A DNA stretch of 64,000 bases from Dryocola clanedunensis subsp. sulfonylureivorans. Its GTDB lineage: Bacteria; Pseudomonadota; Gammaproteobacteria; Enterobacterales; Enterobacteriaceae. A model generated the notes under the pieces. That model was given only the letters and a program-made list of their open reading frames with translations. It was not told the origin of the DNA and did not search any database. Position 1 is the first letter of the stretch. Every line of letters starts with the position of its first letter. The stretch lies in contig NZ_JAERMU010000018.1 of NCBI RefSeq assembly GCF_016756775.1, positions 1-64,000 on the forward strand, read 5' to 3'. Below are positions 17,362 through 62,668 of the stretch, one piece after another. The translations under genes and the position numbers were made by a program.

Positions 17362-17922
17362 ATGTCTATTTTAAGTGGGCCAGCCTGGTGCCGGGCTTTT
17401 CCAGATAGTGATTCTTTACTTGATCTGAAATTTCCATTTGATACCGCAGTCAATAATTTTATTACCGCACTGAAAGCTGCCGGTGCGAGGGTGAGTATTT
17501 CCGCTACGCTTCATCCACCAGAAAGAGCCTGGCTGATGCATTGGGCCTGGATGATTGCAAAAGGCAAAATAGACCCAGCTCAGGTGCCCGCCAAAAAGGG
17601 TGTAGATATTCAGTGGGTGCACGAAACACCGGAAAAAAGCCGGCAGAGTGCTGTTGCGATGGTCAATGCTTATGGGATGCAGGGTCTCCCCGTTGCACCT
17701 GTGCTTCACAGCCGCTATACGGAAGGCCATGCGATAGATATTGATATTAGTTGGGTTAATAATCTTAGGATAAAAAATAAAGCAGGCGAATATGTAGAGA
17801 TTGTTTCCTTCCCGCGTAATGCCATGAATATCGAGCTTGCTCAGGTCGGAAAAAGCTACGGCGTCATGAAATGTCACGATGGTGGGCTGGATGCGCCACA
17901 TTGGTCAGTAGATGGGCGTTAG
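17362..17922 (+). CDS. M15-like peptidoglycan peptidase, possible secreted toxin
   Basis: A 186-residue protein without a signal peptide. A zinc-peptidase pattern of the M15 type is visible: His123 and Asp126/Asp128 in R-Y-T-E-G-H-A-I-D-I-D and the C-terminal D-A-P-H-W with His180. M15 enzymes cut cell-wall peptides (D-Ala-D-Ala or L-Ala-D-Glu). Start ATG 17362 follows AAGGAG. The next gene starts two bases after the stop and encodes a small exported protein, the usual layout of a type VI amidase/peptidase effector and its periplasmic immunity protein. Effector status is inferred; a phage endolysin origin is the main alternative. Confidence 0.65.
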   Translation: MSILSGPAWCRAFPDSDSLLDLKFPFDTAVNNFITALKAAGARVSISATLHPPERAWLMHWAWMIAKGKIDPAQVPAKKGVDIQWVHETPEKSRQSAVAMVNAYGMQGLPVAPVLHSRYTEGHAIDIDISWVNNLRIKNKAGEYVEIVSFPRNAMNIELAQVGKSYGVMKCHDGGLDAPHWSVDGR

Positions 17923-17923
17923 G

Positions 17924-18214
17924 ATGAATAAGCGCAGCTTATTCTGTCTGCTCTGGTTTTTTATTACTTTGAATGTTTTTGCTGGCAGTGGGGTAGCATT
18001 ACCCAGTGATGTGCAAGGCTTTATCGATAATGCTGATGCCTGTGAGCATTTTTCAGGGGAATGGGACAATAACTTACCCAAAACCCGGCAGCTCGATATA
18101 AAAGAGGCGCTCGACAAAAATTGCGGCATCGCCAGGCGTCAGCAAAGCGAATTGAAAGAAAAGTACGAAGGAAACCAGGAGATAGAAAAAATACTCGCGG
18201 ATTATAAATTTTAG
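17924..18214 (+). CDS. Small exported protein, possible immunity partner
   Basis: A 96-residue protein with an N-terminal signal sequence (basic start, hydrophobic core, V-F-A-G cleavage region near residue 20) and two cysteines in the mature part (D-A-C-E-H-F and K-N-C-G-I-A) that may form a disulfide. It follows the M15-like gene by one intervening base. Periplasmic location and pairing with a cell-wall peptidase suggest an immunity role. No family was recognised with certainty. Confidence 0.55.
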   Translation: MNKRSLFCLLWFFITLNVFAGSGVALPSDVQGFIDNADACEHFSGEWDNNLPKTRQLDIKEALDKNCGIARRQQSELKEKYEGNQEIEKILADYKF

Positions 18215-18240
18215 TTTGCTGGCCGTTTTTCTGGTACACG

Positions 18241-18424
18241 GAGAGGAGTAGCCTCTCCTCAGACTGATGACAAACCTAAAGCGAATGCGTTTCGCAAAGA
18301 TCTCACCGAATAAATAACAAGGAAAATCAATTCATTGATTTTCGCCTGCTTACCACAAAGAAGGAAAAACCACGCTTTTTCCTTCTTTGTCAGCAATCTA
18401 AGGAGAGGAGCAACCTCTCCTTTT
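18241..18424. repeat. 140-bp structured repeat between duplicated terminator-like hairpins, copy 1
   Basis: The core is 18261-18400. Apart from about three substitutions it is the reverse complement of 62502-62640. Its ends (AGACTGATGACAAA and, inverted, AGATTGCTGACAAA) are imperfect terminal inverted repeats. Inside are three hairpins, including a 13-bp stem AAAGAAGGAAAAA/TTTTTCCTTCTTT. GAGAGG...CCTCTCC hairpins flank it on both sides (18240-18259 and 18403-18420), and the right one ends in TTTT. The layout suggests a MITE-like unit that targets terminators. Confidence 0.7.
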
Positions 18425-18513
18425 CTTCGCCTGCCGTATACCCCTCGCAACACACATTAACAAACTGTCGCGCTCTGAAAGCGTATAATCCCGCCATCTT
18501 TTAAAGGGGATTT

Positions 18514-18741
18514 ATGACCATGAAAAAACTGCTTTCCATCGCGCTGCTGGCCGGCGTTGCGCTGTCCGTTACCGCCTGTTCCAGCGACTACGTGATGTCC
18601 ACCAAAACGGGCGAAATGATTGTTACCCACGGCAAGCCGGAAGTGGATAAAGACACCGGTCTGACCCGCTACACCGACCAGCAGGGCATCGAGCGCCAGA
18701 TCAACAACGACCAAATCTCGCAGATGATTAAGAAAGACTGA
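18514..18741 (+). CDS. YgdI/YgdR-family small lipoprotein
   Basis: A 75-residue lipoprotein precursor. The lipobox L-S-V-T-A-C ends at Cys22, followed by S-S-D-Y-V-M-S-T-K-T-G-E-M and G-L-T-R-Y-T-D-Q-Q-G, the pattern of the YgdI/YgdR (DUF903) family. Function in the family is poorly defined; it should sit in the inner or outer membrane facing the periplasm. ATG codons at 18514 and 18520 are both usable. It stands alone. Confidence 0.85.
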   Translation: MTMKKLLSIALLAGVALSVTACSSDYVMSTKTGEMIVTHGKPEVDKDTGLTRYTDQQGIERQINNDQISQMIKKD

Positions 18742-18902
18742 TTATCCTGACTTTCTGTCCTCAAAATTCCTGTTCTGGAATACGTCTCGCATGACCAAAA
18801 TCGCCAGTCGAAATGTGAATGGCGATTCGCTTTTGACCAGCTATAGTGCCGATATTGCTTATGCATGGAGGCACTTCTCATGGAAATTCATAAACTGCAG
18901 GC

Positions 18903-18953
18903 GGTTAAACATTGCTCAGTAGGTGGCGCATGTTACGATGAGTTTAAACATTG
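18903..18953. promoter_or_regulatory. Repeated motif upstream of the toxin-antitoxin pair
   Basis: GGTTAAACATTG (18903-18914) and GTTTAAACATTG (18942-18953) are direct repeats 39 bp apart, ending 20 bp before the antitoxin start. MazE/PemI-type antitoxins repress their own promoters, so these are candidate operators. Confidence 0.4.
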
Positions 18954-18972
18954 TTTAATCGAGGCGTCCGCA

Positions 18973-19227
18973 ATGAAAACTCTCATCCGAAAATGGGGCA
19001 ATTCTGCCGGGGCAATCATACCCGTAGCGGTTTTGGATCGGGCTGGTATGAAACTGGGCGATAAAGTAGAGATTGAAGCCGTAGAGGGTGGGATCTTGCT
19101 GCGCGCTGCAAAACCGGTATATACGCTGGAGCAGCTTCTGGCTCAATCACCGGAAGGGAGTTTTGAGCTTGATGATGAAGATCGCGAGTGGCTGAACGCT
19201 AAGCCTGTTGGAAAGGAGCGGGAATAG
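18973..19227 (+). CDS. MazE/PemI-family antitoxin (AbrB fold)
   Basis: An 84-residue protein whose first half is a swapped-hairpin AbrB domain: I-R-K-W-G-N-S-A-G and I-P-V-A-V-L then L-G-D-K-V-E-I-E. The acidic second half (F-E-L-D-D-E-D-R-E-W) is the toxin-neutralising tail. ATG 18973 is chosen because it starts the conserved domain; the frame upstream contains the promoter repeats. Its stop TAG is directly followed by the toxin ATG. Confidence 0.9.
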   Translation: MKTLIRKWGNSAGAIIPVAVLDRAGMKLGDKVEIEAVEGGILLRAAKPVYTLEQLLAQSPEGSFELDDEDREWLNAKPVGKERE

Positions 19228-19560
19228 ATGAGCATCTATCTCCCTGACAGGGGTGATATCGTCTGGCTGGATTTCGATCCCTCCGCGGGACACGAGCAGG
19301 CGAAAACACGCCCGGCTCTGGTGTTAACTCCCGTGCAGTTTAGTCGTCTTACAGGCCTTACCGTGGTTGCTCCCGTGACTTCTCGCGTTCGGGGCAATGC
19401 CCTCGAAGTACATCTGGATGCGGAAAAGACCAAAGGGGTGGTAATCTGCCACCATGTTAAATCGATAGATTTTCGTGCTCGCCGGATTCGTTTTATTGAA
19501 AGAGCCCCGGAAAGCGTAACGGAAGAAGCTTTATCAAAGGTGAAGGTTTTTTTTGATTAA
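19228..19560 (+). CDS. MazF/PemK/ChpB-family toxin (mRNA endoribonuclease)
   Basis: A 110-residue protein with the family landmarks: R-G-D-I-V-W-L-D-F-D near the start, Q-A-K-T-R-P-A-L-V-L in the RNA-binding loop, V-A-P-V-T-S, and a V-K-S-I-D segment with the catalytic region. Such toxins cut mRNA at short sequences until the antitoxin binds. The start directly abuts the antitoxin stop, so expression is coupled. It is closer in layout to PemK/ChpB than to the MazF paired with relA. Confidence 0.92.
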   Translation: MSIYLPDRGDIVWLDFDPSAGHEQAKTRPALVLTPVQFSRLTGLTVVAPVTSRVRGNALEVHLDAEKTKGVVICHHVKSIDFRARRIRFIERAPESVTEEALSKVKVFFD

Positions 19561-62154: not shown

Positions 62155-62442
62155 ATGGAATATAAAGATCCAATGTTTGAACTGCTGAGTAACCTTGAGC
62201 AGATAGTTTTTAAGAACGAACAGACAGTATCAACACGGCAAAAACCTAACGCCTTTTCCGAATTCGAGCAGCTCCGCAAGAGTACGGGTCTAAAAATAGA
62301 CGATTTTGCTCGCGTGATGGGGGTTAGCGTGACGATGGTACAGGAGTGGGAATCAAAACGAATCAGACCCTCCAGTACCGAGCTGAAGCTGATGCGCCTG
62401 ATTCAGGCGAATCCAATGCTTAGCAAACAGCTGATGGAATAA
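62155..62442 (+). CDS. yiaG: YiaG, helix-turn-helix regulator
   Basis: A 95-residue protein matching E. coli YiaG: M-E-Y-K-D-P-M at the start, L-R-K-S-T-G-L-K-I-D-D-F-A-R-V-M-G-V-S in the XRE-type helix-turn-helix, and L-M-R-L-I-Q-A-N-P at the end. In E. coli it neighbours cspA too. ATG 62155 follows GAGGAG. Target genes unknown. A terminator hairpin at 62476-62501 follows. Confidence 0.93.
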   Translation: MEYKDPMFELLSNLEQIVFKNEQTVSTRQKPNAFSEFEQLRKSTGLKIDDFARVMGVSVTMVQEWESKRIRPSSTELKLMRLIQANPMLSKQLME

Positions 62443-62475: not shown

Positions 62476-62668
62476 AACCCCGCTAAGTGATGCGGGGTTT
62501 TAGATTGCTGACAAAGAAGGAAAAAGCGTGGTTTTTCCTTCTTTGTGATAAGCAGGCGAAAACCAATGAATTGATTTTCCTTGTTATTTATTCGGTGAGA
62601 TCTTTGCGAAACGCATTCGCTTCAGGTTTGTCATCCGTCTGAAACCCGCTTAAGGATGCGGGTTTGTT
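62476..62668. repeat. 140-bp structured repeat between duplicated terminator-like hairpins, copy 2
   Basis: The core 62502-62640 is the inverse of 18261-18400 with about three changes. The left hairpin AACCCCGC-TAAGTGAT-GCGGGGTTTT (62476-62501) is the yiaG terminator; the right one, AACCCGCTTAAGGATGCGGGTTT (62643-62665), has the same loop style and the same GC core. As in copy 1, the flanking hairpins resemble each other but not those of the other locus. Confidence 0.7.

Follow-up and report, generated by a model that had tools for sequence, protein, structure and literature searches.

A 143-bp enterobacterial MITE with IS1182-type ends that lies between duplicated terminator-type hairpins

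The repeat unit and its two sites

The window analysed here, a stretch of 64,000 nucleotides from Dryocola clanedunensis subsp. sulfonylureivorans (contig NZ_JAERMU010000018.1, positions 1 to 64,000), holds two copies of a 143-bp unit, each in the neighborhood of genes that may belong to toxin-antitoxin systems. Directly downstream of copy 1 is a two-gene pair (18865-19560) whose products, from the translations of the open reading frames, we take to resemble a MazE/ChpBI-type antitoxin and a MazF/ChpBK-type toxin. Upstream of copy 2, the open reading frame at 62200-62442 may encode the end of a helix-turn-helix antitoxin similar to MqsA/HigA. No promoter-like sites were found in the two window regions with unit copies. 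The features at the two sites are:

18240-18258, + strand: left copy of the duplicated hairpin (target site duplication) of MITE copy 1
18259-18401, + strand: MITE copy 1, 143 bp (sequence comparison and 78 pattern matches genome-wide)
18261-18274, + strand: left terminal inverted repeat of copy 1, AGACTGATGACAAA (same motif at IS1182 ends)
18281-18295, + strand: internal hairpin 1 of copy 1 (RNA fold)
18322-18343, + strand: internal hairpin 2 of copy 1 (RNA fold, both strands)
18355-18390, + strand: internal hairpin 3 of copy 1, a long near-palindrome, ACAAAGAAGGAAAAA-N6-TTTTTCCTTCTTTGT (RNA fold, both strands)
18386-18399, - strand: right terminal inverted repeat of copy 1, reading TTTGTCAGCAATCT on the + strand and AGATTGCTGACAAA on the - strand
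18402-18420, + strand: right copy of the duplicated hairpin of MITE copy 1, followed by TTTTCTT (no flag in the terminator scan)
62476-62499, + strand: hairpin to the left of MITE copy 2, with a CCCCGC stem
62500-62642, - strand: MITE copy 2, 143 bp, inverted relative to copy 1 (sequence comparison)
62642-62665, + strand: hairpin to the right of MITE copy 2, with an ACCCGC stem, followed by GTTGTTTTT (the sole terminator-like match at this site)

An earlier note, made from the letters of the window, had described an inverted, nearly identical repeat at these two sites, and the repeat is real, with its identity revised from about 98% over 140 bp to 97% (BLAST) over 143 bp. The imperfect 14-bp terminal inverted repeats (TIRs) of that description agree at 12 of 14 positions in copy 1, and the three internal hairpins that it listed are all present in the RNA fold of this copy. 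The same holds for its claim that each site has its own pair of matching hairpins, one on either side of the unit. Those flanking copy 1 have an identical stem and a loop with two base differences (a repeat of 18/20), those flanking copy 2 form a repeat of 19/24, and the pairs differ between the 18.3-kb and 62.5-kb sites. A consensus terminator scan flagged the right hairpin of copy 2 and neither of the hairpins flanking copy 1; the name of terminator for the latter rests on our reading of the sequence, with its T-tract TTTTCTT.

The unit is highly structured on both strands (folding z of -6.8 and -5.7, RNA fold of 18241-18424). Membership in a known structured RNA family was rejected, as the gathering score was never reached in an Rfam scan of window positions 17900-18700, where the sub-threshold hits look like hairpin look-alikes. 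A comparison of the unit with phage records gave no matches.

Copies and duplicated flanks in the host genome

An internal 29-bp pattern, with up to three mismatches allowed, has 78 matches in the host genome (39 forward and 39 reverse) versus 0 for a reversed-pattern control, and the window repeat is therefore not a product of chance. The census, compiled from separate searches (30 + 56), comprises 86 loci, one of which (L113) is without a profile match, and the distinct copies of near-full length number 73. Direct repeats with a score of at least 10 flank 60 of these 73 copies, compared to 3 among 1,439 mispairings of left with right flanks, and 30 of the 60 duplicates are perfect. The best mispaired control reached a score of 23, level with real copies, and is probably the pair L008/L012, in which two MITE copies lie in tandem with one hairpin between them. 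Thirteen copies fall under the threshold, including copy 2 of the window (L017). Five of these (L002, L017, L060, L063 and L064) are still flanked by hairpins on both sides, with substitutions or loop indels, while L107 has a 9-bp repeat and the remaining seven have no shared repeat. Being short, free of a transposase gene, bounded by TIRs, present in many copies and flanked by target duplications, the unit has the features by which MITEs are recognized.

A count of copies in related genomes, suggested in the earlier note, located the unit in all five congeners and, among 295 genomes of the family, in 36, which belong to 17 of 154 genera. Exact core matches, among the matches listed, occur in records of Cedecea, Buttiauxella, Dryocola, Serratia grimesii and others. 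One exact core match (L261) is within a record titled Chryseobacterium sp. 18061, possibly an assembly contaminated by an enterobacterium.

Geometry of the duplicate

The duplicates in the host genome are 16-33 bp long and are centered on a hairpin, with the two centers no more than 2 nt apart in 60 of 60 cases and no more than 1 nt apart in 53. Their length follows that of the GC-core hairpin (r = 0.66, p = 9e-9, n = 60, with the hairpin center constrained to within 2.5 nt of the duplicate center), and this is also seen with the perfect duplicates alone (r = 0.58, n = 30). The correlation with the length of the whole palindrome is weaker (r = 0.44), because A/T tails lengthen palindromes. The duplications made by DDE transposons are usually of fixed length, and a duplicate of 16-33 bp that follows the hairpin thus suggests an enzyme that reads structure.

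The paired hairpin copies differ at 24 of 232 loop positions versus 26 of 1,122 other positions, and this loop divergence fits selection on the stems after insertion. Compensatory change was considered as proof of stem selection and found weak: the 30 non-identical duplicates contain one stem pair changed on both sides versus 26 changed on one side, plus one inverted loop. The contrast between loop and stem is the better evidence for such selection. At one MITE copy (L076), the loop of one flanking hairpin is exactly inverted relative to that of the other, as expected for a product of recombination between hairpin arms.

Orthologous sites without the unit

The joined flanks of 13 sites were used as the query against five congeners and gave 46 matches. 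One match at a contig edge, one other and four weak matches of L014 (67-78%) were set aside, so that 40 regions, covering 10 of the 13 sites, were analyzed. The sites L001 (copy 1 of the window) and L009 had no matches, and L017 (copy 2 of the window) was absent from the query; the empty-site result thus concerns sites other than those in the window. The unit is missing from 36 of the 40 orthologous regions, and such site polymorphism between relatives is a further mark of MITEs. The other four regions (L270, L287, L297 and L302) have a copy. In L297 and L302 the unit is in the orientation opposite to that of the host-genome copy, and these are therefore independent insertions into the same terminators. 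Those in L270 and L287, with the host-genome orientation, may be independent or shared by descent.

Among the 36 unoccupied regions, 34 have one hairpin, two have none that was found, and none has two. The script itself counted one terminator hairpin in 33 regions and none in three, with the rule missing a single hairpin in L305. The unoccupied class includes L271, where a 22-bp match to one end of the unit lies at 345-366 of the locus, far downstream of the hairpin. With one hairpin at 34 of the 36 empty regions and two at none, it follows that insertion makes the duplicate.

Position next to genes

A crude open-frame rule puts 66 of the 73 copies past the 3' end of one or both neighboring open frames and five between divergent frames, with two left unassigned. 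Relative to co-directional neighboring frames, the two orientations of the unit were counted 17 versus 23 times, and the idea of a fixed orientation relative to transcription was dropped for want of any such sign. In the 60 copies with duplicates, at least five T residues are present within the eight bases after the right hairpin in 32, at least five A residues precede the left hairpin in 43, both tracts are present in 25, and neither in 10. We infer that the outer terminators would usually survive insertion, with the unit being carried in the 3' ends of mRNAs.

IS1182-family insertion sequences as probable partners

The ends of the unit (CAGACTGMTGACAAA) match the ends of IS1182-family insertion sequences (ISs) in Salinivibrio, Klebsiella, Salmonella, Providencia, Rhizobium and others. 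A search with PF13751 through 148 genomes of the order led to a genome (G119) with 20 IS1182-family transposase matches. The IS in this genome is 1,593 bp long, with ends CAGACTGCTGACAAA and TTCGTCAGCAATCTG, and is flanked by a perfect duplicate at 19 of 19 end pairs, the right end of the twentieth copy not having been found. The protein of this IS is NF033551 transpos_IS1182 (493 bits, NCBIfam), with Pfam domains PF13751 and PF05598. A relative is present in 2,785 records of the plasmid collection, and 15 records were taken for end analysis; the left end CAGAYTGnTGAC was found in 9 of the first 9 plasmid ISs, along with a right end within one mismatch. In family genomes, similar ends occur at most of 11 IS1182 loci.

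The duplicates were analyzed in a non-random sample of 42 IS end pairs, 19 from G119 and 23 from Gammaproteobacteria, Alphaproteobacteria and Bacillota (43 loci entered the count, L170 and L311 were without an end pair, and L313 and L317 stood outside the count). Perfect direct repeats of 16-30 bp are present at 33 of the 42 pairs, and 32 of these 33 duplicates are palindromic about their center, the exception (L180) reflecting an alignment shift in a tandem pair. The duplicate begins with A and ends with T in 30 of the 33, and the palindrome continues beyond the duplicate in 21. The nine end pairs that share no duplicate mostly have a different hairpin at each end, as would be expected if two copies had recombined. 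Different hairpins are found at the two ends of the IS1182 copies L183, L184, L185, L308, L310, L333, L334 and L378, as if ends had been exchanged between two copies. At L180 in G119, tandem IS copies have a common hairpin between them; tandems that share a middle hairpin, this one and the MITE pair L008/L012, could have arisen by a second insertion into a duplicated hairpin or by recombination.

The ISs with CAGACTG ends (from G119, Salinivibrio, Klebsiella, Rhizobium, Aminobacter and others) thus have the terminal 14-15 bp and the duplication of a hairpin in common with the unit, but they are about 1.5-1.6 kb long and carry a transposase gene, which the unit does not. Points that weigh against the IS1182 explanation include the short TIR, only about 14 bp long, and the fact that hairpin duplication is not general in the family (IS1272, ISPse1). 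Of 30 loci in the order sample that hold IS1182 members with other ends, most lacked a convincing direct repeat.

The host genome, a draft of 88 contigs, yielded no IS1182 transposase, and neither did the congeners G003-G005; the case for a donor enzyme therefore draws on other genera. An autonomous partner in the same genome is not strictly required of a relic MITE. An association between unit and IS across genomes found no support: the unit is present in 36 and IS1182 relatives in 27 of the 295 family genomes, and both are present in 6 listed genomes versus 3.3 expected on the assumption of identical draws, with no clear excess over chance. The IS matches in these six genomes are all distant or fragmentary.

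Relation to known repeats and transposons

The left end of the Yersinia palindromic sequence YPAL (also RU-2) differs from that of the unit by 1 base in 15 (PMC2759123, Table 1b), although YPAL is 168 bp long and the unit 143 bp. The duplications reported for YPAL are 3-26 bp long and lie on or beside dyad symmetry (PMC2229807). A YPAL query matched 13 of 198 family genomes. Of 30 YPAL-like loci, 21 were examined by eye, and about 7 of these have duplicated-hairpin flanks (L345, L347, L349, L362, L370, L371 and L372); in many of the rest of the 21, the ends could not be placed. The same query had no match in the host genome (4 of 11 candidates scored). The two elements are thus alike in their ends and in their dyad-symmetry targets but unlike in the interior. 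The earlier note had considered that the unit might turn out to be a known repeat class, and this is borne out for ends and targets of the YPAL/RU-2 type but not for a match to YPAL itself. We infer that a single IS1182 subgroup serves both YPAL and the 143-bp unit, each of them a non-autonomous line. No transposase is named for YPAL in the cited passages.

The staphylococcal element IS1272/TnSha1, of the IS1182 family, is described as targeting hairpins, among them several terminators, with no preference for sequence; the hairpin is deleted in whole or in part and is not duplicated, in contrast to the unit, which duplicates the hairpin (PMC4923244, PMC5678879). PMC5678879 draws duplication of the whole stem-loop as its hypothetical "pathway b", although the relative in question actually deletes its target. 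The duplication tabulated for ISPse1, another member of the family, is 4 bp (PMC3281130). A 142-bp Yersinia repeat called Kristensenii39 is close to the unit in length and is listed with tens of copies in several genomes (PMC2847712), reaching up to 100 copies per genome in Table 3 of that paper. Going by its description, Kristensenii39 might belong to the same family as the unit.

Proposed mechanism and alternatives

The explanation that we favor, with a probability of roughly 0.87, is that the unit is a non-autonomous MITE of the IS1182 family which duplicates a whole terminator-type hairpin, an IS1182-type transposase acting in trans with a stagger equal to the hairpin. As read from the sequences, the unit inserts into terminator-type hairpins, its flanks are the whole stem-loop in duplicate, centered and with a length that follows the hairpin, its ends match those of full IS1182-family ISs with the same type of duplication, and empty sites have a single hairpin. 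These sequences also point to movement of the MITE, past or present, by IS1182-type transposases with a stagger that follows the hairpin. The transposase would act on the ends of the unit and attack both target strands, each immediately beyond the 5' foot of the hairpin, recognizing either a cruciform or two inverted half-sites. The stagger would then equal the hairpin, and gap repair would copy it. Outer hairpins would often retain the outer A- or T-tract, allowing termination to survive, and the unit would join the structured 3' end of the neighboring mRNA, a place to land at low cost. The simplest account is that the strands are attacked at both 5' feet of the hairpin, whether the target is read as a cruciform, a single-strand hairpin or flexible half-sites. 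The last of these choices deserves serious consideration, at somewhat less than even odds: a transposase dimer could read two inverted half-sites in ordinary duplex, such as A-tract/GC junctions with flexible spacing, and extrude no cruciform or single-strand hairpin. The A-first, T-last form of 30 of the 33 IS duplicates argues in this direction, as does the palindrome that outlasts the duplicate in 21 of the 33, showing that cleavage does not invariably fall at the outermost pair available. However, the spacing of 16-30 bp has no constant distance, the stems have no evident common sequence, and A/T ends are also natural to terminators.

The earlier note had left a choice between insertion that duplicates a terminator stem and evolution of the unit within tandem terminators. 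Under the second reading, as we take it, the terminators were there beforehand and the two hairpins are old paralogues. Loops that often differ between the paired hairpins while stems are kept would suit old paralogues, but the same divergence fits stem selection after insertion, and perfect duplicates flank 33 of the 42 IS end pairs. The comparison of empty sites that the note had called for, carried out in the five congeners, produced single hairpins at 34 of 36 regions and double hairpins at none, refuting the tandem origin at the sites examined, which are other than the two in the window. Insertion is the half of the choice that stands, with the IS1182 ISs behaving alike, and an origin in tandem terminators is very improbable. 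We also consider it unlikely that the unit owes its maintenance and spread to its own function, as a 3'-end stabilizer, an RNase III site or a small RNA, its mobility being purely historical. The strong structure of both strands favors such a function, and YPAL-positive transcripts, in work by De Gregorio in 2006, are said to accumulate more. On the other hand, both orientations of the unit occur next to co-directional frames, most of the orthologous congener regions are unoccupied, and the Rfam scan gave no gathering score. A classical enterobacterial repeat such as ERIC or REP/REPIN would likewise be short, intergenic, palindromic and present in many copies. E. coli genomes carry ERIC and REP, but the unit has no match in 5,426 E. 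coli genomes searched in distant mode, and the target duplications differ (TA for ERIC). Membership in ERIC or REP was rejected on the former result, in agreement with the earlier note, and there is scarcely any chance that the unit is a classical repeat of this kind.

Implications

Hairpin targeting by the IS1182 family is already described (PMC4923244, PMC5678879), as are YPAL duplications at dyad symmetry (PMC2229807). In the open literature searched (titles and the beginnings of abstracts), nothing was found that connects IS1182 with YPAL or with MITEs that duplicate terminators, and there was no account of this 143-bp family, of a connection of YPAL-type ends with IS1182 or of the rule for duplicate length. 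A 2007 review presents the movement of such elements by transposases as a hypothesis so far without experimental support (PMC2229807). The present analysis proposes a transposase family for an enterobacterial MITE class that may include YPAL. It also contributes many sequence cases of whole-hairpin duplication, a pathway drawn as possible in PMC5678879 beside the hairpin deletion of IS1272, and it suggests how such elements come to occupy the 3' ends of genes at little cost.

We lean toward a broader interpretation, in which a widespread IS1182 subgroup (Pseudomonadota and Bacillota), along with its MITEs (the 143-bp family and YPAL), would have a stagger set by target structure and no fixed ruler, cutting at both feet of any terminator-like hairpin and thereby copying a whole terminator. 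If this is true, the subgroup would be a class of transposon that brings the host a replacement terminator with every jump.
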